Origin: Aeromonadales bacterium
GTDB taxonomy: Bacteria > Pseudomonadota > Gammaproteobacteria > Enterobacterales > GCA-002770795
Reading direction: 5' to 3'
Length of the DNA: 42,822 bases
NCBI GenBank assembly: GCA_011322365.1
Contig: DRNA01000142.1
Location: 1 to 42,822, forward strand
The notes beneath the pieces were generated by a model. It was not told where the DNA came from. It ran no database searches and saw only the letters and a list, made by a program, of their open reading frames with translations. Below are positions 20,588-37,075 of this stretch, piece after piece; positions within the stretch are counted from its first letter, which is position 1; each line of letters opens with the position of its first letter. A program made the position numbers and the translations under genes.

Positions 20588-22521
20588 TGTTTTTCTCCTG
20601 TATTTCTGGGTCGTTTACTACTGTTTTTATATTGATATAAAAATTTTCGCTTCCACAATAAAGATGGGTCATCCGGTATTCTTCTAAGCCATTGCTTTTT
20701 CTCTTCATCTTTTTCATTCGGTTTCATTTTTCTGGCTTGAGCAGCCAACTTCTGTTTCTCTTCCTCTGACTTTTGTTGTTTCTGTTTCGACTGCTGTCGA
20801 TTTTTTTGTTTTTTCTGTTCTTTTTTCTGCTGCTCTTTATCTTTATTTTCTAATTCCTTTCGCTTTTTTTCCTGTTGCTGACGCTTTTTTCTTTCTTCAT
20901 CAGACATTTTCTGCTGTTGACTGTCAGCATTCTTTTTATCCTTGTCTTTCTGCTTTTCATTCTGATTGTTTTTAGAAGATTTCTGTTTTTTATCTTTCTT
21001 CTGTTTGTTTTTCTGGTCTTTATTCTTTTTCTTGTCCTTGTTGTCTTTGGAGTTCTCACCCTTTCCATTTTTATCTTTTGACTGTTTTTTATTATCTTTC
21101 TGATTTTTTTTATTATCTTTTTTGTTCTTTTTGTTTTTCTGCTGCTTCTTTTTCTGTTGCTCCAGCAATTTCTTGTTATAAACAGCGTCTTCATTATTAA
21201 CATCAAGTTTAATAGCTTTCTCATAGGAAGCTATAGCTTCATCAATCTTACCCAGGCGTGCCAGTATATTACCTCGATTGTACCAGTCATCCGACGTTTT
21301 CAAATCTTTAGAATCCTGCAACGCCTGCTCATAGTTTCCACTTTTATATTCAGCAGCCTGCTTCCATTTTGGCTCAGTGAATAATTTGGTGGATTCCTCA
21401 TAGTTACCTTTGTCAAATTTTTGCTTGGCAATCTGATTTTTGTTCAAAAACAATTCCTCAAACTCAGATGCTTTTGCATTTTGAGTGTGCAGAAATGGAA
21501 CGACTAATAATAACGCCAGGGCTTTGTAATTCATTTGTTTTTTTCTGAAAATTAATGCTATAAACAACAGAGATGCCAATACAAACCATGGCCCTTCCTG
21601 AACCCGACTATCAACCTTAAGATCGTCAGTAGTTTTTTTAATAGAATTTACCGTTTCATCAAACAATCTGGATAATGCTTCAACATCCGAATTGTCAGAC
21701 TTCATTTCATAAAACAGACCACCACCAGAATGAGCAACAGCCTTCATCTTATCTGGATTTATCTTTGCTATGACCATTTGACCACGCTGATTAGTAATAA
21801 ATGAACCCCTATAAGGAACAGGTGCCCCCTGTTTGGTACCTATAGCTAAAACAGAAACCAGATAACCTTTATTCCGGGCCGTTTGAGCAGCTTTTAAATC
21901 AACATCTCCATTGAGTTCATCTGTAACCAGTAAAATATTACCTTTAGGTTGATTGGCCTGTTTTAACAGATCAATCGCCTTGTCTATGGCTTCTTCTGGA
22001 TGGTTTCCCTGTACAGGCATAATGGAAGGAACCAATATGGGTAACTGTGCCAGAATAGTTTTAGTATCACCTGTTAACGGTGTAACTGTAAACGCTTCAC
22101 CTGCATAGACAATTAATGCTGTCATGCCTTCTTTTCGTTTTTTTAATATATCTTCAATTTTAAATTTAGCACGCTGAAGTCTGGATGGCTTTACATCCGT
22201 GGCCAGCATGGATCGTGACAAATCCAGTGCGATTACTAATGCTGATTCATTCACCAATGCCGGATTTTTATTTTCTTTCCAGCCAGGTCCGGCTAAAGCC
22301 GTGATTAATAACAAACCAGCTATTAATGTCATAATACTTTGCCAGATATTTTGACCCTTTGCTGGTTTTTCCAAAACAAATGGTAACAGTTTTTTATCAC
22401 ATACTTTCTCCCATTGGCTATGTCGAACAGTTTGATAAAAGCTGGTAAAAATAAACCAAACAAGGGCAATGATGGCAAGAAACCACCAGGGTCTTTCAAA
22501 AAAAAGATGAGTTAAGTTCAT
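20581..22521 (-). CDS. BatB/BatC fusion: VWA domain, TPR and lysine-rich tail
   Basis: 646 residues. Two N-terminal membrane helices (about 10-30 and 60-80) precede a von Willebrand A domain with MIDAS motif DLSRS (D100, S102, S104) and VTDELNGDVD. A membrane helix near 310 follows, then a TPR-like region (SDDWYNRGNILARLGKIDEA, IASYEKAIKL). Next comes a tail of about 160 residues (about 450-610) composed almost wholly of K, Q, N, D and E. The protein closes with QWLRRIPDDPSLLWKRKFLY, which is conserved at the C-terminus of this family. VWA-TPR fusions combine the separate BatB and BatC of Bacteroides. It is predicted to be an inner-membrane scaffold with metal-dependent protein binding. It starts 3 bases after batA. 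Confidence 0.93.
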   Translation of the reverse strand: MNLTHLFFERPWWFLAIIALVWFIFTSFYQTVRHSQWEKVCDKKLLPFVLEKPAKGQNIWQSIMTLIAGLLLITALAGPGWKENKNPALVNESALVIALDLSRSMLATDVKPSRLQRAKFKIEDILKKRKEGMTALIVYAGEAFTVTPLTGDTKTILAQLPILVPSIMPVQGNHPEEAIDKAIDLLKQANQPKGNILLVTDELNGDVDLKAAQTARNKGYLVSVLAIGTKQGAPVPYRGSFITNQRGQMVIAKINPDKMKAVAHSGGGLFYEMKSDNSDVEALSRLFDETVNSIKKTTDDLKVDSRVQEGPWFVLASLLFIALIFRKKQMNYKALALLLVVPFLHTQNAKASEFEELFLNKNQIAKQKFDKGNYEESTKLFTEPKWKQAAEYKSGNYEQALQDSKDLKTSDDWYNRGNILARLGKIDEAIASYEKAIKLDVNNEDAVYNKKLLEQQKKKQQKNKKNKKDNKKNQKDNKKQSKDKNGKGENSKDNKDKKKNKDQKNKQKKDKKQKSSKNNQNEKQKDKDKKNADSQQQKMSDEERKKRQQQEKKRKELENKDKEQQKKEQKKQKNRQQSKQKQQKSEEEKQKLAAQARKMKPNEKDEEKKQWLRRIPDDPSLLWKRKFLYQYKNSSKRPRNTGEKQW

Positions 22522-22524
22522 TTT

Positions 22525-23502
22525 CTATCTCCTGCTTTTCAAACTTATCAATCCGGCCAATACCAGAAAAAAGATGCCTGCCAGTAAAGGCCAGTAATAC
22601 ATTGATTGCTTGGGTCTAAAATATTGAGCCTCCTGTGAAATAGGTTCTAATTGATCCAGTAATTGATATATTCTATTTAACTGCTGTAAATTATTTGCGC
22701 GGAAATATTTCCCACCGGTAATATCTGCTATTTTCTTCAAGGTCTTTTCATCAAGATCACTACCCATTCGCATTAATCCAAACTGCGTACTTTGTGTTGC
22801 TGCACCTATTCCGATAGTATAAATTTTCAAACCATCAGATTTCGCTAACTCAGCAGCCTTAATAGGATCAATTTCACCAGCAGTATTCGCACCATCGGTA
22901 AGCAGTATTAATATTTTCTGTTTACTTTTAATCTCACTGAACTTTTTTACAGCTAGTCCAATAGCATTACCTATCGCTGTATTAGTACCTGCCAGCTGAA
23001 TGAAGGATTCATCAAGCAGTCTTTTTACTGTCTTCCGGTCAAAAGTTAATGGACTTTGTACATAAGCCTGATCACCGAATAATATGAGGCCAATTCGATC
23101 ACCTTTCCTTTTTTCTATAAAAGCGCCAGCGACCAGTTTGGTTGCAGTTAAGCGATCAATCCATTGTCCCTTATAGTTAAAATCTTCCTTATCCATACTA
23201 CCGGATAAATCTACTGCCATCATGATATTTCTGCCTTTTGTAGGTAAAGCTACCGGTTCTCCAACCCACATGGGATTAGCTGCCGATATTACCAATGCAA
23301 TCCAGGCAATAAGTGATAACCACCATACCCAGTGACTGGCTTTTTCTTCATCATCATGGCCACCAGTTGCGGCATAAACTTCGTCAAAAAATGGCGCAAT
23401 CAATGCCGCTTTTTTAGCTCTTTTGGCTGCAGGCAGCAGGAAATATACCAGTATGGGTAAGGGCAATAAATACAGTACCCAGAGGTTGACAAATTCAAGC
23501 AT
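22525..23502 (-). CDS. batA: BatA-type VWA membrane protein
   Basis: 325 residues. N-terminal membrane segments near 5-24 and 58-75 and a C-terminal one near 303-320 flank a von Willebrand A domain with a complete MIDAS: DLSGS (D98, S100, S102), a conserved Thr in AGTNTAIGNAIG and LLTDGANTAGE. This placement keeps the VWA domain on one face of the inner membrane, where it likely binds a partner via Mg2+. A strong ribosome site GGAGG lies 6 bases before the ATG. The start overlaps the DUF4381 gene by 8 bases, which points to translational coupling in the operon. Confidence 0.93.
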   Translation of the reverse strand: MLEFVNLWVLYLLPLPILVYFLLPAAKRAKKAALIAPFFDEVYAATGGHDDEEKASHWVWWLSLIAWIALVISAANPMWVGEPVALPTKGRNIMMAVDLSGSMDKEDFNYKGQWIDRLTATKLVAGAFIEKRKGDRIGLILFGDQAYVQSPLTFDRKTVKRLLDESFIQLAGTNTAIGNAIGLAVKKFSEIKSKQKILILLTDGANTAGEIDPIKAAELAKSDGLKIYTIGIGAATQSTQFGLMRMGSDLDEKTLKKIADITGGKYFRANNLQQLNRIYQLLDQLEPISQEAQYFRPKQSMYYWPLLAGIFFLVLAGLISLKSRR

Positions 23503-24010
23503 GTTGACCTCCGGAATGTATCTCTAGCACTTTATGCTGAGGTTTTTGTTTGTAAGCCGTTTTAATCCAGTTAGTAACCAGAGATTCCAGCTCTTCAATC
23601 TTTTCCACAGGCCTGTCTTTATAGGGCGCAGTAATTAACATCCGACCGACTCCCTGAGTAAACTGATCCGTCTGCCCCAATTGATCGAGTAGTTGCAGCC
23701 ACTTTTCACCAGTTACCGATGCCGTTTGCCCTCGGCTCGCCAGTGTCATTACACACTGCCGAAGCAATATAGATAGCTCTTTAATATACCGACTACTATC
23801 CTGATGCTGTTGGTAGTGCTGCTTTATAGAACAAAACTGATTTAATGCAATGGTAATAAATCTGGCCTGTTTCCATTTCCTATATTGTATGATGGCAACA
23901 GGAGTCACAATAACCAAAGCCAACAATACCCACCAGATAGGAGCCAATGGCCACCAGTCTACTGTAGCTGGAAGATGAATATCTCTTAAGGGTAACTGTT
24001 GCGGATTCAT
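23495..24010 (-). CDS. DUF4381 domain protein of the Bat operon
   Basis: 171 residues. The opening NPQQLPLRDIHLPATVDWWP, followed by a membrane helix (about 25-45, APIWWVLLALVIVTPVAIIQ) and a cytoplasmic helical domain with LLRQCVMTLASRG and WLQLLDQL, is the DUF4381 pattern. The family is found almost only between DUF58 and batA genes of proteobacteria, and its biochemical role is unknown. Start and DUF58 stop overlap (ATGA), so it is translationally coupled. Confidence 0.9.
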   Translation of the reverse strand: MNPQQLPLRDIHLPATVDWWPLAPIWWVLLALVIVTPVAIIQYRKWKQARFITIALNQFCSIKQHYQQHQDSSRYIKELSILLRQCVMTLASRGQTASVTGEKWLQLLDQLGQTDQFTQGVGRMLITAPYKDRPVEKIEELESLVTNWIKTAYKQKPQHKVLEIHSGGQHA

Positions 24011-24975
24011 ACAAATTCTCCCACTTTAAATTCATCTCTGTACTCATTTAATGCACGATAGGTCGCAACAATGGGTTCATCCGTTGTTAATACCTGAGTG
24101 CAATTTATACCGGGATACTTTGCCATATCCATAACCGCATTAATCCGATCGCTTACCGCCTTATAATATTTTCCCATTACTTTTTTATTTGCTGTATTAA
24201 TATTAATCTGTTTTTCTCTGTTACTAATGGCGTAGCGTCCATGACTGGGTAAATGGATCTCAACAGGATCCAGTATCAAGGTTAATAAAATATCCTGATG
24301 CCGTGATAGGCGTAACAGAAATTTTTTGCATTCATCATCCCAACCCCGAAAATCACTAAAGATGTAAAGTGCTACTCCCGGATGTTTCATCTGAGACAGG
24401 CTTTGTAATTTTTGTAGAAAGGTCAGAGGTTGCTGTTTTGATTGAGGTTGATTTTTCACCTGACTCAATTGCCCCAATAACTGAATAAAGCCTTTTCGAG
24501 AACGTGCCGCATTAAAATGAGCCACTTTAGTATCGGTAACAGAAAAACCACCAACCCGATTGTGTTTTTGTAACTCATGCCATCCAACCAGCGCTGCCAG
24601 TTTTGAGGCAACAACCGATTTATATAAACCCTGAGTTGCAAATTGCATCGATTGGCTTTGATCGATCCATAAAAATAATGGACGTTCTCTTTCTTCCTGA
24701 TATAAATTGGTATGAACTTCCCCGGTCCGGGCCAGTGCCATCCAGTTTATGTCCCGAACATCATCACCTTCTTCATAGCGACGAATATCGGCAAGTTCCA
24801 TACCTCGCCCTTTAAACGCAGAAAGCATCGAACCCTTATACTGACTTTTAATGGCATTTATTGGCAACTGGAAATGCTGCGCAAAACGGCTTAAGGAAAT
24901 CAGTTCATGCAAATCTACTACAGTAGGATCGCCTGTAAGATTTGAGCTGTGTTTTTGTGCTGTCTGCATTATCAT
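24007..24975 (-). CDS. DUF58 domain protein (VWA-like), Bat operon
   Basis: 322 residues from the ATG at 24975. AAGGAG lies 8 bases before it and overlaps the moxR stop; the in-frame GTG at 24984 is too close to that site. The signature GRGMELADIRRYEEGDDVRD, INWMALARTGEVHTNLYQEE and RERPLFLWIDQSQSM are classic DUF58 segments, the last being a VWA-like metal motif (DQSQS). These proteins partner MoxR ATPases, possibly presenting substrates for remodelling. Location is cytoplasmic or membrane-associated. Confidence 0.93.
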   Translation of the reverse strand: MIMQTAQKHSSNLTGDPTVVDLHELISLSRFAQHFQLPINAIKSQYKGSMLSAFKGRGMELADIRRYEEGDDVRDINWMALARTGEVHTNLYQEERERPLFLWIDQSQSMQFATQGLYKSVVASKLAALVGWHELQKHNRVGGFSVTDTKVAHFNAARSRKGFIQLLGQLSQVKNQPQSKQQPLTFLQKLQSLSQMKHPGVALYIFSDFRGWDDECKKFLLRLSRHQDILLTLILDPVEIHLPSHGRYAISNREKQININTANKKVMGKYYKAVSDRINAVMDMAKYPGINCTQVLTTDEPIVATYRALNEYRDEFKVGEFV

Positions 24976-24987
24976 TCCGCGCACTCC

Positions 24988-25986
24988 TTAAGGTACTGCG
25001 ATCTCTTCCATTAATTCACTGATAAACTGATCTTTACTGATGCCCTGAGCCTCAGCTTCATAAGAAAGGCCTATTCTATGTCGAAGCACATCATGCACAA
25101 TATCCTGAATATCATCAGGTGTGACAAAATCTCTACCTGCCAGCCAGGCCTTTGCTCTTGAACATCGATCCAGCGCAATAGTAGCTCTTGGGCTTGCTCC
25201 AAATTCCAGCAAATTTTCAAACTTATTACCATAGACCTGAGGATTCCGTGTGGCAATTACTATGGCCACCAGATAATCTTCCAGTTGTTCAGACATATGC
25301 ACATTGAGCACTTCTTTTCGTGCTTCAAAAATACTTTTTTGTGAAAGTTGAGTCCTGGCTTTCTGCTCATCATCTTTGGTCAGTGTTTCATTTCTGACAC
25401 AACGTAATATCTCTTTTTCTGTAGTCTGGTTTGGATAATCCACAGGTATATGCAGCAAAAAGCGATCGAGCTGAGCTTCCGGTAGCGGATAGGTGCCTTC
25501 CTGTTCAATGGGATTTTGAGTTGCCATTACCAGAAATAATTCCGGTAGCTGATAAGTTACACCACTGACGGTAACCTGCCTTTCGCCCATCGCTTCCAGT
25601 AAAGCTGATTGTACTTTTGCTGGTGCCCGATTAATTTCATCTGCCAGAATAAGATTATGAAAAAGAGGCCCTTCTCTGAAACTAAATTCACTCAGTTGGG
25701 GTAGGAAAATCTCTGTACCAGTTAAATCAGAGGGTAATAAATCCGGGGTAAACTGTAATCGTCTAAAATCCCCTTCGATATAACTACTAAGCAAATTAAC
25801 CGCCCGGGTTTTTGCCAGGCCAGGCGCACCTTCAACCAGAATATGTCCATCTGCCAGCAACGCTACCAGCAAACTGTCCAGCATATATTCCTGACCAATA
25901 ATGCCTTTGCTCAAGTTATCTTTAAGCATAGCGAATTTAACCTGATTGGCCGATTTAGTATCTTCAGTTTTTTGTATTGAGTCCAT
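24988..25986 (-). CDS. MoxR-family AAA+ ATPase
   Basis: 332 residues from the ATG at 25986 (an AGGT element is upstream; the TTG at 26007 is less likely). Walker A is GAPGLAKT. Walker B is LILADEINRAP. Sensor 1 is LVMATQNPIEQEGTYPLPEA, followed by LDRFLL and the C-terminal lid with FGASPRATIALDRCSRAKAW. MoxR ATPases are chaperone-like remodelling enzymes that work with VWA proteins, here BatA and BatB/C. It is the first gene of a six- to seven-gene operon with spacings from 3 bases to overlaps. A 160-base divergent region separates it from the response regulator at 26148, so one intergenic region may control both. Confidence 0.94.
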   Translation of the reverse strand: MDSIQKTEDTKSANQVKFAMLKDNLSKGIIGQEYMLDSLLVALLADGHILVEGAPGLAKTRAVNLLSSYIEGDFRRLQFTPDLLPSDLTGTEIFLPQLSEFSFREGPLFHNLILADEINRAPAKVQSALLEAMGERQVTVSGVTYQLPELFLVMATQNPIEQEGTYPLPEAQLDRFLLHIPVDYPNQTTEKEILRCVRNETLTKDDEQKARTQLSQKSIFEARKEVLNVHMSEQLEDYLVAIVIATRNPQVYGNKFENLLEFGASPRATIALDRCSRAKAWLAGRDFVTPDDIQDIVHDVLRHRIGLSYEAEAQGISKDQFISELMEEIAVP

Positions 25987-26051
25987 GGTTTTACCTCGTT
26001 TGTTCAATTGTGGTTATAATAACCCGTTGTCTATTACAACAAGGTGGATTT

Positions 26052-26073
26052 AACATTACAGAAAGTTAATGTT
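26052..26073. promoter_or_regulatory. Dyad in the moxR / response regulator divergent region
   Basis: AACATTA at 26052-26058 and TAATGTT at 26067-26073 are perfect inverted arms 8 bases apart. CATTACA within it and GCATTAC at 26089-26095 resemble half sites of CopR/CusR-type regulators. It could be the autoregulatory site of the OmpR-type regulator encoded next to it. Confidence 0.3.
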
Positions 26074-26113
26074 TTAGTGATTAAATTTGCATTACACTTT
26101 CATTGACCCCATA

Positions 26114-26141
26114 TTGACACTTATCTGTTTCCAGGTACTAT
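26114..26141 (+). promoter_or_regulatory. Sigma-70-type promoter giving a leaderless response-regulator transcript
   Basis: TTGACA at 26114-26119 is a perfect -35, followed after 16 bases by TACTAT at 26136-26141. The expected start of transcription is about 26148, which is the A of the ATG itself. The mRNA would then have no 5' leader, which agrees with the lack of a good ribosome site. Confidence 0.45.
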
Positions 26142-26147
26142 CAGACC

Positions 26148-26840
26148 ATGAAAGTTTTATTAATTGAAGACGATAAAAATACCATTGATTTTATTCAGAA
26201 AGGCTTACATGAAGCCGGGCATAGTGTTGTTATCAGTGAAAATGGCAAAGAAGGTTTATTTCAGGCACTGGAACTTGAGTTTGATGTGATGGTTATCGAT
26301 CGTATGTTACCCGGCTTAGATGGATTATCCATTATTAGCACCATTCGCAATGCACATATCAAAACACCCATTATTATTCTCAGCGCGTTGAGTGACGTTA
26401 ATCAACGTGTCGAAGGACTCAAATCAGGTGCCGATGACTACCTCTCCAAACCTTTTGCTTTTTCTGAACTACTGGCTCGACTGGAAGTTTTAACTCGTCG
26501 GATTTTTGTTGAAGAACAACAAACTATCCTGACTATTGACGATCTGGAAATGGACCTGCTATCACATCAGGTAAAAAGGGCCGGAAAGGTCCTGGATCTG
26601 CAATCCAGAGAATATCGATTACTGGAATATTTACTCAAACATCAGGGACAGGTTGTTACCCGTACCATGCTGCTGGAAAATGTCTGGGATTATCATTTTG
26701 ATCCACAAACTAATATTATTGATGTACATATCAGTCGGTTGCGTGCCAAAGTTGATAAAGGCTTTGAAAACCCACTCATCCATACAGTTCGAGGTGCTGG
26801 TTATACCTTGCGTGTCGATGAAAAAAATGATGAGAGCTAA
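26148..26840 (+). CDS. OmpR/PhoB-family response regulator
   Basis: 230 residues. The receiver domain (1-115) has the acidic pocket D8-D9, phospho-acceptor D51 in VIDRMLPG, and K in DYLSKPF. The winged-helix DNA-binding domain (about 130-222) includes LDLQSREYRLLEYLLKHQGQ, TRTMLLENVWDYHFDPQTNI, IDVHISRLRAKVD and a terminal HTVRGAGYTLR. The closest look is to CopR/CusR/QseB-type regulators (MLPGLDGL, and WDYHFDPQTNIIDVHI as in CusR), so metal or envelope sensing is plausible but unproven. The stop lies 3 bases before the cognate kinase start. Confidence 0.95.
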   Translation: MKVLLIEDDKNTIDFIQKGLHEAGHSVVISENGKEGLFQALELEFDVMVIDRMLPGLDGLSIISTIRNAHIKTPIIILSALSDVNQRVEGLKSGADDYLSKPFAFSELLARLEVLTRRIFVEEQQTILTIDDLEMDLLSHQVKRAGKVLDLQSREYRLLEYLLKHQGQVVTRTMLLENVWDYHFDPQTNIIDVHISRLRAKVDKGFENPLIHTVRGAGYTLRVDEKNDES

Positions 26841-26843
26841 CTG

Positions 26844-28232
26844 ATGAAATTATTTTCCAGCAATAGCTTTAAACTGGCACTATTATATCTACTGATATTT
26901 TCTTCATCCGTTTTTTTGCTGATCAGTTATTTTTATCAATCAACTTTAGGATTTCTTGAAGCCGAAACCGATACTACCATTGAAATAGAAATTCAGGGAC
27001 TGGCGGAACAATATCAAAAACGAGGCCTGAATGAACTGATAGATATTATTCAACAACGTTTGAAAAGAGGCCCTGTCACCCAGTCAATTTATTTACTGAC
27101 CGATTCCGAAAAAAAAATTATCGTCGGTAATTTGAGTGCCTGGCCAGAAAATGCCACACTGAAAAATGGTTGGCTTAATTTCAGTTTGCAGACACAGAAT
27201 CCCAACCTGGAGCAACATCAGGTAAGAGCAAAGCAATTCAGACTGCTTGGAAATTACTATTTAATTGTGGGTCGTGACATCCATGAGCTGGCAGAAACCA
27301 AACAACTGATGTTTGATGCTCTCTTATGGGGCCTTTCCCTAACACTGATTTTAGGTTTATTGGGTGGCTATATACTTACTCGGAAAATATTGGGTAAAGT
27401 TGCCCGCCTGGATGATAGCTGCCGTACTATTATTGAAGGTCAGTTAACAAAACGCGTTCCTCGGGATTTTTCAAATGATGAATTTGATTCTCTGGCAGAA
27501 ACCATTAACTTAATGTTGGATAAAATTAATCAGCTAATGATCGGCATCACGCAGGTAACAGATAATATTGCTCATGATCTCCGTACACCTTTATCCAGAC
27601 TGAAGCAATCACTTGATTCGGCGTTGAACGACCAACTGGATAAGGATGCCCGACAGCAACTGATTGCTACCAGTATGGATGAAGCAGATAACCTCATCAC
27701 TACATTTAATGCATTATTAAATATTGCCTATGTTGAAAATACTGATAAGCAAATTGAGTTAACAGAGGTGGATCTGGCTCTCATATTAGGTGATGTGTAT
27801 GAACTTTACTATCCCCTTGCAGAAAATAAAAATCAACAATTTATTCTTCATATACAGGAAAATATTTCTTTCTTAATCTTATCTGAACACAACCTGTTAT
27901 TTCAGGCATTGACTAACTTAATTGACAATGCGATTAAATTCACACCCGACAATGGCATTATCACGATTAAACTAAGCCAACAGAACAATCAGTTCATTTT
28001 AATTCTATCCGATAATGGCTGTGGCATTCCTGAGGAAGATATTGATCGGGTTTTCAATCGATTTTTCCGTTCAGATAATAGCAGAACCTTGCCCGGAACC
28101 GGTCTTGGCCTGAGCCTGGTTGCTGCGGTTTGTAAACGCCTTCATATTCAACTCTCTCTGGAAAATCTTAATCCAGGTCTAAAAGTTAAACTGGTTTTTT
28201 CTGAATTAAAGCCCTTTAATTTGGAAAAATAA
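26844..28232 (+). CDS. Sensor histidine kinase (HAMP), partner of the OmpR-type regulator
   Basis: 462 residues. Membrane helices at about 10-31 and 155-178 enclose a periplasmic sensor region of some 125 residues. HAMP is followed by HisKA with phospho-acceptor H244 in NIAHDLRTPLSRL, then HATPase_c with N box NLIDNAIKFTPDNG, G1 LSDNGCGIPEEDID, F box NRFFRSDNS and G2 GTGLGLSLV. The C-terminal stretch IQLSLENLNPGLKVKLVF is encoded by 28144-28199. A near-identical 56-base copy recurs at 35769-35824, beyond the ABC/sigma-54 cluster (see findings). The gene is otherwise complete. No target operon is adjacent apart from the divergent Bat operon and the downstream ABC genes. Confidence 0.95.
   Translation: MKLFSSNSFKLALLYLLIFSSSVFLLISYFYQSTLGFLEAETDTTIEIEIQGLAEQYQKRGLNELIDIIQQRLKRGPVTQSIYLLTDSEKKIIVGNLSAWPENATLKNGWLNFSLQTQNPNLEQHQVRAKQFRLLGNYYLIVGRDIHELAETKQLMFDALLWGLSLTLILGLLGGYILTRKILGKVARLDDSCRTIIEGQLTKRVPRDFSNDEFDSLAETINLMLDKINQLMIGITQVTDNIAHDLRTPLSRLKQSLDSALNDQLDKDARQQLIATSMDEADNLITTFNALLNIAYVENTDKQIELTEVDLALILGDVYELYYPLAENKNQQFILHIQENISFLILSEHNLLFQALTNLIDNAIKFTPDNGIITIKLSQQNNQFILILSDNGCGIPEEDIDRVFNRFFRSDNSRTLPGTGLGLSLVAAVCKRLHIQLSLENLNPGLKVKLVFSELKPFNLEK
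28144..28199 (+). repeat. Left copy of a 56-bp repeat (3' end of kinase gene)
   Basis: This in-gene segment begins ATATTCAACTCTCTCTGG and ends in GGTTTTT. It matches 35769-35824 at 52 of 56 positions, the first 34 bases being identical. The four mismatches are third-codon changes in the kinase frame. Confidence 0.9.
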
Positions 28233-28248
28233 GCAAAGATTTACTTTT

Positions 28249-28288
28249 CGTACACCGTCCACCGTTGTCCGCTACAAAAACCGTACAC
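28249..28288 (+). promoter_or_regulatory. Candidate upstream activator sites for the sigma-54 promoter
   Basis: Two similar elements, CGTACACCG (28249-28257) and CCGTACAC (28281-28288), flank a TTGTCCGCTACAA element (28265-28277) with inverted TTGT/ACAA ends. They lie about 80-115 bases upstream of the -24 box, the usual distance for an NtrC-type activator. The GC-richness of the patch stands out from its AT-rich surroundings. The obvious candidate binder is the activator encoded at 33042-34388. Confidence 0.5.
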
Positions 28289-28364
28289 TTTTATTGCTAT
28301 ATTCTCATCAAGCATAAGGCGTTATTTTATTATTTATCAATGGGTTAAAATTATCCACGAGTAA

Positions 28365-28380
28365 TGGCATAAAACTTGCT
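28365..28380 (+). promoter_or_regulatory. Sigma-54 (-24/-12) promoter of the ABC efflux operon
   Basis: TGGCAT-AAAAC-TTGCT fits the consensus TGGCAC-N5-TTGCW with one mismatch (T for C at the sixth base). GG and GC are exactly 12 bases apart. Transcription would start near 28391, about 30 bases before the adaptor gene. The downstream operon encodes a GAFTGA-containing sigma-54 activator, which strengthens the call. Confidence 0.85.
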
Positions 28381-28421
28381 CTGTTAGTTACATCAGCTAC
28401 GTTAGTCTTTGGTTAAATATA

Positions 28422-29693
28422 ATGATTCAGGATACATCGTCTCAGGATGTGATTTTAGATAATCATAATTTAAAATTCTCAATTAATAAGATTCTCATCC
28501 TCCTTTCAATATTGAGTCTGGTTATTATATTCCTTTTTAAAGGATTTTCTAACTGGTTAGCTTCAGATCGTACCGTAGCTAAAGCTCGTATTCAGATAGC
28601 CACGGTAAAACGAGGTCAATTTACTCGAGACATCGCTTTACAAGGGATTATTGTGGCGGCCAACAGCCCTAAATTATATGCGCCAGCCATTGGTAATATT
28701 ACACTCCTGGCTAAACCGGGAGAATTTGTTAAAAAAGGCGATCTGGTCGCTGTTTTGAATAGCCCGGAGCTGACAAATCGTCTTCAGCAACAACAGGCAA
28801 AACTTGATAGTCTTGAGATTGAGTTAGAGCGTAAAAAAATAAATACTAAAAAGGAAAAAATAAAGTCCAGGCAGAAAATTCAACTTGAAAAAGTTGTTCT
28901 TGATGCGGCAGAACGCGAAATGAGACGTGCTGAAAAATCAATCAAAATCAAGGCCATCAGTTTACTGGATTATGAAAAAGCGATTGATGATTTAAAGCGC
29001 TCTAAATTAAAACATACCTTTGCCATAGAACAGGCTGCACTGGAAAATGAGAATCTGGCATTTGAAATTAAAACAGCTGAATTTGAAAAAAATCAATATG
29101 CGCTATTGGTTGATAATACCTCAAGGTTGGTGAAAGAATTAAAGATGCTGGCTCCTGTTTCAGGTATTGTGGGTTCCTGGTCTGTTGAACAGAAATCTGC
29201 GGTGAGTATTAACCAACCATTACTCACCATTGTAGACCTGACACAATTTGAAGTAGAAATTGATATTCCTGAAAATTACGCAGATAAAATAGGTCTCGGT
29301 ATGCCGGTTTATGTGCAATATAATCAGCAAAAGTACCCTGCCAAAATTTCAACCATATCTCCCGAAGTGAAACAGAATATTGTAAAAGCAAGAGCTAAAT
29401 TTACCGCCACCCCACCCCCTGGTATTAAACAGAATCAACGTGTTTATAGCCAGGTTATTTTAGAAGAAAAAAATAATGTCTTATTTTTGCCCAGAGGTTC
29501 GTTTGTACAGCATCATAATGGACGTAAAATATTTGTGGTAAAAAACAATATTGCGCTACTCAGAGACATCCAGACTGGTTCCAGTAGCATTGATAAAATT
29601 GAAGTGATATCAGGACTCAATGCAGGAGAGCAGGTCATTATTTCTAATACGGATTTTGTTAAAAATGCTTCCACATTAACCATCAAAGAATAA
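28422..29693 (+). CDS. HlyD/MacA-type periplasmic adaptor of an ABC efflux pump
   Basis: 423 residues. A single membrane anchor lies near 28-45 (ILILLSILSLVIIFLFKGF). A lipoyl-like half (LYAPAIGNITLLAKPGEFVK, then KGDLVAVLNSPEL), a long coiled-coil hairpin (about 125-235, rich in K and E), the second lipoyl half (LAPVSGIVGSWSV) and a beta-barrel domain (FEVEIDIPENYADKIGLGMP, PRGSFVQHHNGRKIFVV) follow. This is the layout of MacA-like membrane fusion proteins that link an inner-membrane transporter to an outer-membrane channel such as TolC. No TolC-type gene is present here, so a channel encoded elsewhere would be needed. It is the first gene after the sigma-54 promoter, and 2 bases separate it from the ATPase frame. 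Confidence 0.93.
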   Translation: MIQDTSSQDVILDNHNLKFSINKILILLSILSLVIIFLFKGFSNWLASDRTVAKARIQIATVKRGQFTRDIALQGIIVAANSPKLYAPAIGNITLLAKPGEFVKKGDLVAVLNSPELTNRLQQQQAKLDSLEIELERKKINTKKEKIKSRQKIQLEKVVLDAAEREMRRAEKSIKIKAISLLDYEKAIDDLKRSKLKHTFAIEQAALENENLAFEIKTAEFEKNQYALLVDNTSRLVKELKMLAPVSGIVGSWSVEQKSAVSINQPLLTIVDLTQFEVEIDIPENYADKIGLGMPVYVQYNQQKYPAKISTISPEVKQNIVKARAKFTATPPPGIKQNQRVYSQVILEEKNNVLFLPRGSFVQHHNGRKIFVVKNNIALLRDIQTGSSSIDKIEVISGLNAGEQVIISNTDFVKNASTLTIKE

Positions 29694-29716
29694 ATATGAT
29701 AACAATAGGTGAACCC

Positions 29717-30418
29717 ATGTTAAAAATGACACATATCAAAAAAGTATTCAGAACGGATCTGGTCGAAACCCACGCACTAAGGGATTTCAGCCTGGAAGTC
29801 AAAGAAGGAGAATTTGTCGCCATTACCGGCCCTTCCGGTTCTGGAAAAACAACCCTTTTAAATATTACCGGAATGCTGGATACTTTTGATGGCGGTTGTT
29901 ATCTTCTGGATGAACAAGATGTCAGCCAGCTTAATGATAAACAACGTTCCAGGCTACGCAATGAAAAAATTGGCTTTATTTTCCAGAGCTTTAATTTAAT
30001 TCCTGATCTGAATGTTTTTGATAATGTGGATGTACCCTTACGTTATCGGGGTTTTAATCATAAGCAGAGAAAACAACGCATTGAAGAAGTTCTGGAAAAA
30101 GTAGGGCTGATTGCAAGGCAAAAACATTTACCCTCACAGCTTTCAGGTGGTCAGCAACAAAGAGTAGCCATTGCCAGAGCATTAGCAGGCTCTCCTCGAT
30201 TTTTACTCGCCGATGAACCCACCGGCAACCTTGATTCTTTAATGGCCCGCCAGGTGATGCAATTATTAGAACAGATAAACCAGCAGGGTACGACCATTAT
30301 AATGGTCACTCACGATGGCGAACTTGCCAGAAGAACGCAACGTAATATCCATATTGTTGATGGCGAAGTCACCGATTATGAAACCCTGCAACCTGTTCTT
30401 GAAACCTCTGAGGCTTAG
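29717..30418 (+). CDS. ABC transporter ATP-binding protein, MacB/LolD type
   Basis: 233 residues from the ATG at 29717, which has AGGTG upstream; an in-frame ATG at 29696 adds seven residues but lacks a ribosome site. Walker A GPSGSGKT is at residues 38-45. Q-loop is FIFQSFNLIPDLNVFDNV, signature LSGGQQQRVAIARAL, Walker B FLLADEPTGNLDS and H-loop VTHDGELA. The type matches MacB/LolD/FtsE-like ATPases, which drive type VII mechanotransmission ABC systems rather than classical import. It pairs with two separate FtsX-like permeases downstream, so ATPase and permease are not fused as in E. coli MacB. Confidence 0.95.
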   Translation: MLKMTHIKKVFRTDLVETHALRDFSLEVKEGEFVAITGPSGSGKTTLLNITGMLDTFDGGCYLLDEQDVSQLNDKQRSRLRNEKIGFIFQSFNLIPDLNVFDNVDVPLRYRGFNHKQRKQRIEEVLEKVGLIARQKHLPSQLSGGQQQRVAIARALAGSPRFLLADEPTGNLDSLMARQVMQLLEQINQQGTTIIMVTHDGELARRTQRNIHIVDGEVTDYETLQPVLETSEA

Positions 30419-30454
30419 GACTTCTACTCTCACACAGCCTCCCAGGAGAAAATT

Positions 30455-31771
30455 ATGTTTCGATATTATCTCAAACTTTCATGGTTAAGTATTAAACGAA
30501 CCCCCTTGCTCACCGCCTTGATGGTACTGGCCATTGGCCTCGGCATCGGCGTCAGTATGACCGTTATCACTGTGAACTTTCTTATGGATAGAGATCCCAT
30601 TCCAGAAAAAAGCCAGCAACTTTTTTCTGTACAGTTAAATAGTTATGGTAATGATAACTCTAATCCATGGACCAGCGATGGATTTCCTCTACAGATTACT
30701 TATCAGGATGCCATCAATATCCATCGATCAGCTATTCCAAGCCGACAAACTGCAAGCGTCAGAACGGGGTTTTCCCTCATCCCAAATAAATCAGGACTTA
30801 CACCCTTTATGACTTCGGCTCGAGCCATCTATAGCGATTTTTTCAGTATGTTTAATATTTCTTTTTTATATGGTAGCCATTGGGATAAAAATATTGATAG
30901 TCATCCACGAGATATGGTGGTACTGAGTAAAAACATAAATGACAAGTTATTTAATGGCAAAAACAGTGTTGGTAAAACCGTTAATCTGGAATCCCATATT
31001 TATACTATCGTAGGTGTGATTGATAGTTGGGAACCTACACCTAAATTTTATGATCTGAATAATGGCAATTTTAATTCCCCTGAAGATATTTTTATTCCGT
31101 TTTCATTGTTACCTGTACATGAATTACTGAGTTGGGGTAATACCAATGGTTGGAAAACCGAAAAAATTGATAGTTATCAGGCTCGACTTGATTCTGAACT
31201 GGCCTGGATCCAGTACTGGGTTGAACTACAAACCCCGCAGCAAAAACAAAACTATAAAAACTGGCTATCGGGTTATATTAGTGAACAAAAAAAACTGGGT
31301 CGATTTGAAAATAAAAAAGCGGGCGCCGCTATCAGAGACGTAAAACAATGGCTTGACTATAATGAAGTGGTATCAAAAGACAACCGTGTGTTAGTGGGCT
31401 TATCGTTTATGTTTCTGGCCGTTTGTATGATTAATACTCTGGGGTTATTGTTAGCTAAATTTTTACGCCGGGCACCCGAAGTCGGGGTAAGACGCGCATT
31501 GGGTGCCAGCCGTCGTACTATTTTTATACAACATCTGGTGGATGTCGGCCTTATTGGCTTTGCCGGTGGATTACTCGGATTAGCCATTGGGCAACTGGGT
31601 TTATTAGGCGTGAAATCACTGTATCAGGGTTATCACAATCTGGTGCAAATGGATTTTAGCCTGATCCTGCTGGCCATTTTTATAGCTCTAATCTCCAGCT
31701 TAATTGCTGGCCTTTATCCCGCCTGGCTGATCTGTAGAACCAATCCCTCGGTTTATTTGAAGTCACAATAA
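30455..31771 (+). CDS. FtsX/MacB-like ABC permease 1
   Basis: 438 residues. One N-terminal membrane helix (TPLLTALMVLAIGLGIGVSM, about 15-40) precedes a large periplasmic MacB_PCD domain of some 260 residues. The C-terminal FtsX domain has three membrane helices: VLVGLSFMFLAVCMINTLGL, then the coupling segment FLRRAPEVGVRRALGASRRT, GLIGFAGGLLGLAIGQLGLL and SLILLAIFIALISSLIAGLY. The motif EVGVRRALGAS is diagnostic for the family. Such half-transporters dimerise and move periplasmic substrates outward by mechanotransmission. Ribosome site GGAG precedes the ATG. Sequence differs from permease 2, so the transporter is probably a heterodimer. Confidence 0.94.
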   Translation: MFRYYLKLSWLSIKRTPLLTALMVLAIGLGIGVSMTVITVNFLMDRDPIPEKSQQLFSVQLNSYGNDNSNPWTSDGFPLQITYQDAINIHRSAIPSRQTASVRTGFSLIPNKSGLTPFMTSARAIYSDFFSMFNISFLYGSHWDKNIDSHPRDMVVLSKNINDKLFNGKNSVGKTVNLESHIYTIVGVIDSWEPTPKFYDLNNGNFNSPEDIFIPFSLLPVHELLSWGNTNGWKTEKIDSYQARLDSELAWIQYWVELQTPQQKQNYKNWLSGYISEQKKLGRFENKKAGAAIRDVKQWLDYNEVVSKDNRVLVGLSFMFLAVCMINTLGLLLAKFLRRAPEVGVRRALGASRRTIFIQHLVDVGLIGFAGGLLGLAIGQLGLLGVKSLYQGYHNLVQMDFSLILLAIFIALISSLIAGLYPAWLICRTNPSVYLKSQ

Positions 31772-31827
31772 TGCTTGAAGCCAAATAATAAAACCTAATG
31801 AAACCCATTTAATTCCAGGAGAAATAC

Positions 31828-33036
31828 ATGCTACATATTAAGCCCATATTCAATACCCTGTTAAGGCATAAAAGTAGTTCTTTACTCACCATCTTACAAA
31901 TTGCACTCACATTTGCAGTCGTGGTAAATGCCATCAGTATTATTCAACAACGCCTCTCAGATATGCATCGACAAACCGGGCTGGCAGAAAACCAGCTACT
32001 GGCAGTAAACATTAACCCCTTTGGTAAGGACTATAATTTAAAGCAAAATTTTATAGAAGACAGAGCATTAGTCCGGGCCATTCCCGGTGTTATTGACGCG
32101 ACATTAATTGATCAGCTCCCTTTGTCAGGTGGCGGTAATTCTTCCTCCATGGCGGCAACACAAGAGAAATTTGATAACAAAGATAATATCAATGCGGGGA
32201 TCTTTTTAGGCGATAATCATCTGGTGCATACTTTGGGAGTAAAAATTATCGCTGGCAGAGATTTTAGCGCTGAAGAAGTCCTTTATAGCACAAAAGCTGA
32301 AAACCCGAGGGTCATATTAATCACCCAGACAGTGGCGGACAAATTATTTCCAAAAGGTAATGCGTTGGGGAAAATGGTCTATTTGTGGGGTTTCAATGTG
32401 AGAGTTATCGGTATTATTGAAAAAATGGCTGGCCCCTGGGTTCATTCTTCAAGGTATGATGACAATGTGTTGATGCCCATCCTTTATCTTGGCAGGAATT
32501 TCAGACGCTTATTGATCCGGGTGAAAACCAGTCAGATGAATGAATTATTAGGTACTATTGAAAAAAAACTGCTTGCCAGAAATCCTAATCGTGTCATTGA
32601 TGGCATCCGTTCCATTAAAGAATATAAAACTGGCAGCTACAGTGGTGATAGGGCGATGTCAAAAATACTCTGGTATGTTGTTGCACTTCTCATCATAATT
32701 ACTGCATTAGGCATTGTCGGCATCAGCAGCTTTAATGTGAGTCAACGTATTAAACAAATTGGCACAAGACGTGCTCTGGGTGCAACAACTACTGACATCT
32801 TAAGCTACTTTATTACTGAAAATATCATTATCAGCGTGATCGGTGTATTGCTGGGGTCTGTTATCGCAGTTGCTTTTAATATTTATATTGTGAATACCTT
32901 TAAACTCTCGGCTATCGAATGGTACTATTTCCCTGTTGGTATTTTTATTATGCTAATTACGGGAATTGTTGCCGTCTGGGCACCTGCGGTAAAAGCATCC
33001 AGAATTTCACCTGCTGTAGCCACACAAAGCGTGTAA
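31828..33036 (+). CDS. FtsX/MacB-like ABC permease 2
   Basis: 402 residues with the same design as permease 1: N-terminal helix (SLLTILQIALTFAVVVNAIS), a periplasmic domain (including DQLPLSGGGNSSSMAA and LGVKIIAGRDFSAEEV) and three C-terminal helices around IKQIGTRRALGATTTDILSY. It is 56 bases after permease 1 and has GGAG before its ATG. The two permeases, ATPase and adaptor together form an efflux machine of unknown substrate; related arrangements export peptides, antibiotics or lipoproteins. It ends 5 bases before the regulator gene. Confidence 0.93.
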   Translation: MLHIKPIFNTLLRHKSSSLLTILQIALTFAVVVNAISIIQQRLSDMHRQTGLAENQLLAVNINPFGKDYNLKQNFIEDRALVRAIPGVIDATLIDQLPLSGGGNSSSMAATQEKFDNKDNINAGIFLGDNHLVHTLGVKIIAGRDFSAEEVLYSTKAENPRVILITQTVADKLFPKGNALGKMVYLWGFNVRVIGIIEKMAGPWVHSSRYDDNVLMPILYLGRNFRRLLIRVKTSQMNELLGTIEKKLLARNPNRVIDGIRSIKEYKTGSYSGDRAMSKILWYVVALLIIITALGIVGISSFNVSQRIKQIGTRRALGATTTDILSYFITENIIISVIGVLLGSVIAVAFNIYIVNTFKLSAIEWYYFPVGIFIMLITGIVAVWAPAVKASRISPAVATQSV

Positions 33037-33041
33037 AAAGT

Positions 33042-34388
33042 ATGAGCCAGATTTTATTAATTGATGATAACCAGGGTATAGCTAAAGCCTTAAAGGTTTT
33101 ATTTTCCCTGTATAATTTATCCATGCAACACGCTGAGACCCCGGAACAGGGGCTTGTTTTGTTAGAGACGACAGAAATTGATCTGGTCATTCAGGATATG
33201 AATTTTTCTGATGACACTACCTCAGGCGAAGAAGGAAAAATACTTTTTAATCAGATCCATAACCAATATCCTGATACCCCCATTATTTTACTCACGGCAT
33301 GGGGAAAAATTGAAATGGCCGTTGAATTAGTCAAACAGGGGGCGGCTGACTATATCACCAAACCCTGGGACGACATCAAACTTGTCAATACACTCACAAA
33401 TTTATTGGAACTTGGCCAGCTCCGTCGGCAAACACATTCCATATTAAAACATAAGTCTGATCAGGCAAAAAAGCTGGCCAAAAATTTTGATCTCTGTGAC
33501 ACTATTTTTGATAGCGAAGCCATGTTACAAAATTTAACCATTGCCACCCAGATAGCCCATGCGGATATTCCAGTATTGATCACCGGCCCCAATGGTAGCG
33601 GTAAAGAAAAAATAGCGGAAGTTATTCAGGTTAATTCTTCCGTATGTAAACAACCCTTTATCAAAGTTAATATTGGCGCCCTGCCCGTTGATTTACTGGA
33701 AGCTGAATTATTTGGTGTAGAAGCCGGAGCCTTTACCGGTGCACAAAAAAAACGCATTGGCCGATTTGAAGCCGCTGATGGTGGCACCTTGTTTTTAGAT
33801 GAAATAGGTAACCTGCCTTTAAATGGTCAGATAAAATTATTAAGAGTGATTCAAACGGGTGAATTCGAACGCCTGGGAAGTTCAAAAACCCGCAAAGTCA
33901 CGGTCAGAATTATCAGTGCGACCAATGCTGATTTAAAGGAAGAAATCGAAAAGGGAAATTTTCGTGAAGATTTATATTATCGACTCAATGTCATAGAAAT
34001 CAATATTGTACCTTTATGTGATCGTAAGGATGATATCTTGCCACTGGCCTTACATTTTATGCCAGATGATTTTGTGTTAACCCGAGATGCTGAAAGAGAT
34101 CTTATGAATCATTCGTGGCCAGGAAATGTCAGAGAATTACAAAATGTGATCCAGCGAGCCAGTCTGCTATCGAATGACAAAAAATTATCAGCTGATAAAT
34201 TGGGATTACTTCCTGTAAAAATAGCATCTAATAACAGTTCCAGAATAGAACCGGATAAACAAATGCTGATTGAAACACTTGCAAAAAATAAGCATAATAT
34301 TTCTCAAACAGCCAAACAACTTGGATTAAGCAGGCAATCTCTATATCGTAGATTAGACAAATATGACATAGCTAAAGGACACCTCTGA
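33042..34388 (+). CDS. NtrC-type sigma-54 activator / response regulator
   Basis: 448 residues from the ATG at 33042 (the open frame extends upstream into permease 2, but the receiver domain begins here, [18 protein letters not shown]). Receiver: D52 in [17 protein letters not shown] and [19 protein letters not shown]+ domain: Walker A GPNGSGKE (about 182-189), sigma-54 contact loop GAFTGA at 229-234, Walker [14 protein letters not shown], and arginine-finger segment [13 protein letters not shown] Fis-type helix-turn-helix closes the protein ([20 protein letters not shown]). It should activate sigma-54 promoters after phosphorylation by the kinase that follows. The promoter at 28365 heads its own operon, which suggests positive autoregulation. 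Confidence 0.95.
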
Positions 34389-34413
34389 AGAAAAGATTGA
34401 AAAAAGGTATCAC

Positions 34414-35769
34414 TTGGAAAAACCAATAGTCAAAAAAATTACACTTGAAGCACAACTAAACATGCTGTTAGTTCTCGCTATTCTTGGCACTTTGCTCACT
34501 GTTTGCATCCTATATTACTTTGTTAATGACATGCTGCTGAGTATACTTTTTACTGTGGCTTTAGTACTCCCTGCAAATGTTATTATACTTCATTATTATA
34601 TGTCGCCCATCAATCGTATGCTTGCAGCACTATACTCGGGAATGAGCAATTTTCTGGATAATGATTTTAGTATTTCTTTGGCAAAAAAACGACAGGATGA
34701 ATTGGGCGATCTGATTGAAATATATAATCGTGTTGGTACTACTTTAAGGAATGAGCGTGTACACCTCTATCAGCGCGAATTACTGTTAGATACCGTTATG
34801 CAATCAACCCCTCTGAGCCTGGTACTCACCGATGATTCTGGAAAAATTATCTACAATAATAGTTCAGCAAGACAATTATTTAATCATGGGAGAAGTTTGA
34901 ATGGCTTTAACTTTACATCATTGCTGGATACTTTACCAAAGCCTTTTAAACAATCTTTAAAATCTGGTCTCAGTGGTCTTTTTACGGTTATCGAAAACAA
35001 TGAAAATGAAACCTATTATCTAACACAAAATAAATTCCTGTTAAATGGTAAACAACACCTACTTTATTTATTTAAACGCCTTACTAAAGAAATAAATCGA
35101 CAGGAGGTCAATACCTGGAAAAAAGTCATCCGGCTAATCAGTCACGAATTAAATAACTCGTTAGCTCCTATTTCTTCTTTGTCCCATTCCGGTAAATTAT
35201 TATCGACTCGTCTCCAGGTACTACAATTACAGGATATTTTTGAAACTATAGAAGAACGATCGAATTATCTAAAAAGATTTATTGAAGGTTACGCTGAATA
35301 CGCTCGACTACCGAAACCTGTTATAGAAAAAATCAATGCTTATTCATTTTTCTCTAGCCTGCAAAACCTGCATAGTTTCACTTTACAATGCCAGCATGAC
35401 AATGCATCTATTCATTGCGATCCAGCTCAATTGCAACAGGTTATGATCAATTTACTTAAAAATTCTCATGAATCTGGCTCTGATACTCAGGCTATTCTAG
35501 TCGAAGTGAGAAACCATGCTGATAGCACAGAAATTAAAATAAAAGATCGTGGCTGTGGCATGCCAGAGAACACGATTAGAAATGCTTTATTACCCTTTTA
35601 TTCAACTAAGGCCCGAGGCAGCGGGCTTGGCTTGCCCCTTTGTAGAGAAATCATTGAGGCCCATGGGGGGAAAATATTAATTCAAAACCGGAAAAACAAA
35701 GGGCTTGGTATTACGCTGTTTTTACCTAATATAAAATCTGATTTTACAACTGCATCTGATCCGATCTAA
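34414..35769 (+). CDS. NtrY-like sensor histidine kinase of the ABC cluster
   Basis: 451 residues, starting at TTG with AAGG 6-7 bases upstream. Two membrane helices near 14-34 and 40-62 are separated by only a few residues, so the sensor input is probably in the membrane or from the periplasmic pump. A HAMP-like linker, a PAS domain (LLDTVMQSTPLSLVLTDDSG, KIIYNNSSARQLF) and HisKA with H244 in SHELNNSLAPISSLS follow. The HATPase_c domain has MINLLKNSHESGS, DRGCGMPENTIRN and GSGLGLPLCREIIEAHGG. HELNNSLAPI is typical of kinases that partner NtrC-type regulators. The stop codon overlaps the first base of the right copy of the 56-bp repeat, so the end of this gene marks the right border of the possible cassette. 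Confidence 0.94.
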   Translation: MEKPIVKKITLEAQLNMLLVLAILGTLLTVCILYYFVNDMLLSILFTVALVLPANVIILHYYMSPINRMLAALYSGMSNFLDNDFSISLAKKRQDELGDLIEIYNRVGTTLRNERVHLYQRELLLDTVMQSTPLSLVLTDDSGKIIYNNSSARQLFNHGRSLNGFNFTSLLDTLPKPFKQSLKSGLSGLFTVIENNENETYYLTQNKFLLNGKQHLLYLFKRLTKEINRQEVNTWKKVIRLISHELNNSLAPISSLSHSGKLLSTRLQVLQLQDIFETIEERSNYLKRFIEGYAEYARLPKPVIEKINAYSFFSSLQNLHSFTLQCQHDNASIHCDPAQLQQVMINLLKNSHESGSDTQAILVEVRNHADSTEIKIKDRGCGMPENTIRNALLPFYSTKARGSGLGLPLCREIIEAHGGKILIQNRKNKGLGITLFLPNIKSDFTTASDPI

Positions 35770-35824
35770 TATTCAACTCTCTCTGGAAAATCTTAATCCA
35801 GGCCTGAAGGTGAAACTGGTTTTT
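35769..35824 (+). repeat. Right copy of the 56-bp repeat: remnant of a kinase gene 3' end
   Basis: 52 of 56 bases match 28144-28199. Translated in the corresponding frame it reads IQLSLENLNPGLKVKLVF, identical in protein to the end of the OmpR-type kinase. The four changes (GGT/GGC, CTA/CTG, AAA/AAG, GTT/GTG) are all synonymous. No start or catalytic domain precedes it, so it is a relic. After GTTTTT the two sequences diverge completely. Confidence 0.9.
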
Positions 35825-35950
35825 CGGGCAGCCTCTCATATTTATTTAATCTATATCACCGCCTTCCTAATAGTTCTATTATCTGCAAAAATCACCTTTT
35901 CAGGTAATTGATAAACACTATCGTTATCTTTACTATTATTGGCAATAACT

Positions 35951-36004: not shown

Positions 36005-37075
36005 ATGCGATCTATCTGTTTAAATTTTATACTGATTTTTATTTTGATTTTTTCTGCTGATGTATCGGCCAAAAAGAAAGGTTCGGGCGCCTATATTGAA
36101 GTTAAGTCTCCCAGGGTTCATAACTTTGCCATTCGAGTTCTTAATGATGGAAAGAAATATGTCGCGGTAAAAAATTCTTATTTACCGGTGAAGTTTGACG
36201 TACTATTAAAGGCTCGTTGTGGTAATAGATACCACCAGGACAGTGCCTATTTTTCTGTTGCAGGTACTTCCACTAATATTCCTGTGAACAAAAAAAATAA
36301 AACCTTTAGTAAAAATTTCAGAAAATACAGTTTTTCTGTTCCATATGCTGATCCAAAATATTCCATACCTCCCATTAAAGCCTGTAATACTGCTTTAACC
36401 CAGGCAGCTTTGTCAAAGGGAAAGACAAAATCGGCGTTATTACAATCTGGCTGGTCAAAAAATATTTATGAAACGTATTTTTATAGAGGCACATTTAAAT
36501 TAACCTGCAAAGAAAACAGGAAAGGGCTTTTTGATGAACCTAAATACTATAGCGCTTCAGCAAATCTTGGTGTTGCTTATGAATGTTTGAAAAGTGCCAG
36601 TGCCAATAAACCTAAACCCCATCCAAAGCCCAAAAGAGCAAAAACACCTTTTAAGGTATCCAAAGCTACCCTTGCTGTCGATAAACCTTCCTATCATGGT
36701 AAATGTCCAGTCAATTTAAAATTTACCGCCACTTTTACTTCTACTAAAAAGGGGAAAGCTAAATACCGTATTCTCGGTTCAGGGGGTAGTCTTTCTCCAG
36801 TGAAAACGGTAACTTTCAAAAAAGCTGGCAAAGTGCAGATCCCTTTCGTTATTAAAAAAGGGAAAAGCCAAAAATCCTCGGCTATTACGGGTATGAATAT
36901 TACAACGAGCAAAAAGAAATCCACTCTGAATAATCTGACATCACAACCGAGCAATGTATTCGCTGGCTGGTTTCAGATACAGATGCTTTCACCTAATAAA
37001 ATGAAATCAAACAAACAGACCTTTAAGGTATTCTGTCAGGATCATCCCAAACGTTATAAAAAAATATCGGGCTAA
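36005..37075 (+). CDS. Secreted lysine-rich protein with two domains, unknown function
   Basis: 356 residues. A clear signal peptide (CLNFILIFILIFSADVSAKK) is followed by an N-terminal domain (about 25-200), a proline- and lysine-rich linker (KPKPHPKPKRAKTP) and a C-terminal domain (about 215-350). Six cysteines remain in the mature protein (ARCGN, KACNT, LTCKE, YECLK, GKCPV, FCQDH), enough for three disulfides. The C-terminal domain, with SYHGKCPVNLKFTATFTSTK and GKAKYRILGSGGSLSP, resembles an Ig-like or carbohydrate-binding fold in its strand pattern, though I cannot name a family. The mature protein is strongly basic. A strong AGGAGG precedes the ATG. It stands alone after the relic repeat; whether it belongs to the two-component pair or the ABC cluster is unknown. 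Confidence 0.8.
   Translation: MRSICLNFILIFILIFSADVSAKKKGSGAYIEVKSPRVHNFAIRVLNDGKKYVAVKNSYLPVKFDVLLKARCGNRYHQDSAYFSVAGTSTNIPVNKKNKTFSKNFRKYSFSVPYADPKYSIPPIKACNTALTQAALSKGKTKSALLQSGWSKNIYETYFYRGTFKLTCKENRKGLFDEPKYYSASANLGVAYECLKSASANKPKPHPKPKRAKTPFKVSKATLAVDKPSYHGKCPVNLKFTATFTSTKKGKAKYRILGSGGSLSPVKTVTFKKAGKVQIPFVIKKGKSQKSSAITGMNITTSKKKSTLNNLTSQPSNVFAGWFQIQMLSPNKMKSNKQTFKVFCQDHPKRYKKISG

Follow-up and report, generated by a model that had tools for sequence, protein, structure and literature searches.

In a 42,822-nucleotide stretch of DNA from an Aeromonadales bacterium (contig DRNA01000142.1 of the draft assembly GCA_011322365.1; hereafter the window), the conserved end of a sensor kinase gene occurs twice, once inside the gene itself and once behind a set of efflux and regulatory genes. 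This arrangement raises the question of how the second copy came to lie there, and whether the genes between the copies were brought in from outside and joined to the end of a kinase gene that remained intact.

A repeated sensor kinase 3' end

The first kinase gene, HK1 (26844..28232, plus strand), encodes an intact HAMP/HisKA/HATPase sensor kinase. It follows the gene for its partner, an OmpR-family response regulator (RR; 26148..26840, plus strand) with Pfam Response_reg and Trans_reg_C domains, whose best NCBIfam model is that of heavy-metal response regulators, at a score below the model's cut-off. Direct sequence reading and a repeat search confirmed the direct repeat described in the original prediction: positions 28144–28199 (left copy, plus strand) and 35769–35824 (right copy, plus strand) are identical at 52 of 56 nucleotides, the first 34 of them without a mismatch. 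The remaining differences fall at repeat positions 35, 38, 41 and 44 (T/C, A/G, A/G and T/G). Each is the third base of one of four successive codons and is silent (GGT/GGC, CTA/CTG, AAA/AAG and GTT/GTG), and both copies translate to HIQLSLENLNPGLKVKLVF once the C that comes before the repeat in the HK1 frame is added. Beyond the shared core, the left copy ends in GTCTAAAAGTT.

The left copy lies in frame within HK1 and encodes its conserved C-terminal end. It had been described as the last part of the gene; more exactly, IQLSLENLNPGLKVKLVF is the last conserved stretch, and ten further codons (SELKPFNLEK) precede the stop at 28232. HK1 orthologs have a C-terminus of the form ...PGLxVxxxF, followed by a short variable tail. 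The right copy, a relic of the 3' end of an HK1-type gene, has no such gene in front of it and starts on the last base of the stop codon (TAA, 35767–35769) of a second kinase gene, HK2. Outside the 56 bases, homology between the copies is gone on both sides; it ends sharply, on the left with the stop codon of HK2 and on the right past the last conserved residue, a phenylalanine. Because this phenylalanine precedes short unrelated tails in orthologs, the sharp right end is what the ends of two orthologous genes would show. The kinase frame of the relic stays open for 28 codons beyond the repeat (RAASHIYLIYITAFLIVLLSAKITFSGN; window 35771–35914), which could be an old native tail or chance. We also considered a role for the relic as a terminator and rejected it: the right copy reached −10.5 kcal/mol against −3.8 for the left, but its z-score against its own shuffles was −1.2, and a terminator scan was empty there.

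The pair is the only direct repeat of at least 40 bases in the window. An ordinary dispersed repeat, which the original prediction had named as a finding that would speak against it, is ruled out, as a 151-base probe across the HK1 end had just two matches in the 3.65-Mb genome bin, namely the two copies. For a 24-base core of the repeat, 0 occurrences are expected in shuffled sequence; its origin cannot be chance.

From the silent differences it had been concluded that each copy diverged while in a working gene. Our simulations introduced four differences into the left copy. All four were silent in 0.3–1% of runs if a free relic alone mutates, and in 2–5% if the relic mutates freely while the working copy changes silently only; in the neutral relic simulations, silence together with clustering in ten bases was found in 0.02–0.04%. 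Divergence of both copies within working genes is favoured ~20–40-fold over the more realistic of the two neutral models, although a neutral relic next to a gene under constraint does yield this pattern in the 2–5% of runs just mentioned. The argument is of moderate strength, since four differences carry all of it. Uniform divergence of two working copies would also rarely (~0.5%) place four differences within ten bases, and this points to a junction inside the identical part of the repeat. Codon usage was checked for an indication of the native copy: third-position GC is equal across gene groups (0.33–0.35), and four codons are too few for such a comparison.

These simulations bear most directly on a local event, in which 56 bases were duplicated as the module inserted, by a long target duplication or a template switch, and later changed silently by chance. 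It would be the simplest event, and a constrained HK1 copy can indeed change silently only, but the all-silent outcome is infrequent in the simulations and the clustered one far more so, and we consider this origin improbable. A misassembly in a mixed-strain metagenome bin seems a very poor explanation. The genome is a draft of 497 contigs, and a 34-base identical core may mislead short k-mer assemblers, but the junction between HK2 and the relic overlaps no other place, which means that misjoining through overlaps cannot have produced it, and the bin contains no second allele. Moreover, even if the four arms were joined the other way round at the core, the outcome would be a module circle with an HK1 end plus an empty site, itself evidence of integration.

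The module between the copies

The 7.6-kb insert is fully occupied by six genes and their promoter, and the module they form is complete, in the order activator-site-like sequence, sigma-54 promoter, HlyD, ABC, permease, permease, sigma-54 response regulator and HK2, all on the plus strand. By-eye comparison with the upstream regions of relatives pointed to probable upstream activator sites at 28250..28295 (GTCCACCGTTGTCCGC...CCGTACAC), a degenerate relative of the TGTCCG/CGGACA sites found at other modules. A predicted sigma-54 (−24/−12) promoter, TGGCATAAAACTTGCT (28365..28380), fully matches the pattern TGGCAYRNNNNTTGCW. The transporter genes encode a HlyD/MacA-type periplasmic adaptor (28422..29693; Pfam HlyD families), a MacB/LolD-like ABC transporter ATPase (29696..30418; Pfam) and two MacB/FtsX-type permeases (30455..31771 and 31828..33036; Pfam). 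They are followed by an NtrC-type sigma-54-dependent response regulator (33039..34388; Response_reg, Sigma54_activat and Fis-type HTH domains) and by HK2, an AtoS/NtrB-like sensor kinase (34414..35769; Pfam/NCBIfam).

This gene order, with a −24/−12 promoter upstream, is that of sigma-54-controlled HlyD/ABC/MacB modules. The exporter resembles MacAB and darobactin-type (DarBCD) systems in combining an adaptor and an ATPase with MacB-type permeases, and the best NCBIfam model of the ATPase is DarD. All three Dar equivalogs scored below their cut-offs (DarD, 283.6 against 375 bits; DarC, 82.5 against 450; DarB, 37.6 against 700). It is unlike DarBCD in having two separate permeases and its own sigma-54 two-component pair, and we saw no peptide or maturation gene nearby.

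HK2 ends in SDFTTASDPI (window 35737–35769), a C-terminal tail reaching ~10 residues past the ends of its relatives near LPNKI or LPLLKN. To judge from this comparison, these extra residues may stem from the junction, and the HK2 end may have been affected where the insert was joined on the right.

The kinase pair and the module in other genomes

The original prediction called for relatives that carry the regulator and kinase without the ABC cluster. We found such RR–HK1 pairs at all 36 loci of relatives (12, 4 and 20), some of which lie on contigs that end nearby. The full arrangement looked for, in which the kinase is followed at once by the gene at 36005–37075, did not turn up in a sample whose nearest HK1 is 46% identical. 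Conversely, the module occurs without an adjoining RR–HK1 pair at 32 of 32 loci in the order's other genomes. Most of these have the full six-gene order, three having the four transporter genes only, and a sigma-54 promoter with activator-like elements lies upstream of HlyD at most modules inspected in the order. In one genome (G007), module and RR–HK1 pair share a contig, at ~0.1 and 3.47 Mb, more than 1 Mb apart. The kinase pair without the module in relatives, and a module that is self-contained elsewhere, make insertion at the end of HK1 the best reading of the locus, and we conclude that the module was very probably inserted there.

Every testable module locus elsewhere lacked flanking repeats, and the repeat is thus, judged from these loci, not a general property of this type of module.

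Kinase pair and module also differ in where their nearest relatives are found. Those of HK1 are 43–46% identical and belong to other orders of the class (the best match among 369 genomes of the class was 46%), whereas the nearest modules, 62–67% identical in permease 1, come from another family within the order, which gives the two parts separate histories. Neither the module nor a good HK1 ortholog was present in two other genomes of the window's family. A close relative with an empty site was found neither in the genus, nor in GTDB 220 when searched by kinase, nor among 395 genomes of the order. On plasmids, our search returned only distant relatives of HK1, and matches to the permease of 46–53% in three Pseudoalteromonas replicons.

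The surroundings of the pair point the same way. At four loci in other gammaproteobacterial orders (L142, L146, L147 and L148), a MoxR/DUF58/BatA/BatB operon lies just downstream of RR–HK1 in the same orientation, with one further gene in between at L142 and L146; in the window (20581–28232), RR–HK1 and the MoxR/Bat operon are divergent. Association of the two-component pair with the operon is conserved; their relative orientation is not. From these four loci, the association of RR–HK1 with the Bat operon would be old and the module a newcomer. On the other side, the right-flank gene g36005 (36005..37075, plus strand) belongs to no Pfam or NCBIfam family, and the two other genomes of the window's family contain no match to it; its 356-residue product looks secreted. 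As a further check on the conservation of this flank, umuDC was located in G001, where it sits in a different context.

A remnant of a paralog would account for the silent divergence with no foreign donor. In this case, two diverged RR–HK1 copies would once have flanked the module, and a deletion would have left no more than the final 56 bases of the second. Some relatives do have two RR–HK1 pairs (G579, G587 and G449), but the genome itself holds no HK1 paralog closer than ~31%, and two rearrangements would be required while the arrival of the module would still need explaining. We regard this course of events as unlikely.

Proposed joining of the module to the kinase gene, and known systems

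We favour, as the probable explanation, acquisition of the module from outside and its joining at the 3' end of HK1, the incoming DNA bringing its own kinase 3' end; horizontal acquisition, its direction and the relatedness of the donor are what we infer from the loci compared above. A self-contained efflux module, made up of promoter, adaptor, ATPase, two permeases, sigma-54 regulator and kinase, would have arrived on DNA that also bore the end of an HK1-like gene. Recombination at the HK1 3' end would then have let HK1 run on into one version of this end and stay intact (left copy), while the other version would have been displaced 7,625 bases downstream, to persist as the 56-base relic (right copy). 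The right junction, between HK2 and the relic, has no homology within the window, and the left crossover could be placed only with the sequence of the donor; among the loci compared, no sequence that joins an HK1-like end to the module turned up.

Two routes fit, and the homologous recombination with a diverged ortholog proposed in the original prediction is only one of them. By this route, a possibility only narrowly ahead of the other, a related donor would already have had RR, HK1 and module side by side, and RecA-dependent one-sided (homology-facilitated illegitimate) recombination would have anchored the incoming DNA in HK1 and joined it illegitimately on the other side. The mechanism is known experimentally from transformable bacteria and Escherichia coli (PMC3240628). 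It makes mobility genes unnecessary, and dprA is present in the genome, as it is in most bacteria. It does require a donor with the module already beside HK1, an arrangement seen at 0 of the 36 RR–HK1 loci and 0 of the 32 module loci, in a sample where the nearest HK1 is the 46% match given above.

The other route, nearly as possible, is integration of a circle by a Campbell-type crossover, whether homologous or site-specific, at the core of 34 identical bases. In its site-specific form, the attachment site of the circle would carry the core and a replacement HK1 3' end, and the integrase would have acted in trans or been lost, leaving a cis-mobilizable remnant. The junction has the identical core and then a diverged end that restores the gene, which is consistent with this, the right copy then being the displaced native end, and at other sites the genome encodes four or more strong tyrosine recombinases. 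Against it, the 7.6-kb insert holds no integrase, all of it being taken up by the six efflux and regulatory genes and the promoter; the module elsewhere has no flanking repeats, and the core was absent from the viral contigs searched. A more general version, in which integrase-less cargo circles move between bacteria and use the conserved 3' ends of sensor kinase genes as attachment sites with a recombinase supplied in trans, we think highly improbable.

If confirmed, acquisition from outside would provide a readable junction: an export module that brings its own sigma-54 control came to stand behind a two-component system to which it is unrelated, and left that system undamaged. It would also mean that a silently diverged 3'-end relic can serve as a marker of acquired cargo beyond prophages and toxin clusters. 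Our understanding of such insertion events is unchanged by the finding. The footprint had been called rare, which is too strong a word: relics of gene 3' ends left by inserted cargo have been described for e14 in icd, for type VI secretion system (T6SS) effectors and for Rhs loci, and the scar is a further instance of a type of recombination scar already known.

The textbook precedent for the circle is e14 in icd of E. coli K-12, where the icdC relic corresponds to 165 duplicated bp with 12 changes and two conservative replacements at the protein level (PMC11148124). In both cases an element has, on one side, an intact gene whose 3' end was replaced and, on the other, a displaced partial copy, with mostly silent differences; e14 is a prophage, whereas the insert described here lacks integrase and phage genes, and its repeat measures 56 bp. 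Elements that have lost their integrase and kept attL and attR have been described as cis-mobilizable elements (CIMEs; PMC5704250). Like them, the locus has cargo between attL/attR-like repeats in a gene 3' end, one direct repeat restoring the target gene HK1 and the other being a displaced remnant, and no recombinase of its own, which CIMEs lack by definition. Unlike in CIMEs as described, the att role of its repeats is putative, no related complete element was seen, and the testable module loci elsewhere do not share these ends. The one-sided route has its counterpart in the displaced effector 3' ends of the Vibrio cholerae T6SS, for which homology-facilitated illegitimate recombination has been proposed (PMC5361080). 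There, as with orphan immunity genes and orphan Rhs tips, an incoming module anchors in the conserved part of a gene and the old 3' end is pushed downstream; those are toxin–immunity modules, whereas here an efflux and regulatory module stands behind a two-component system.
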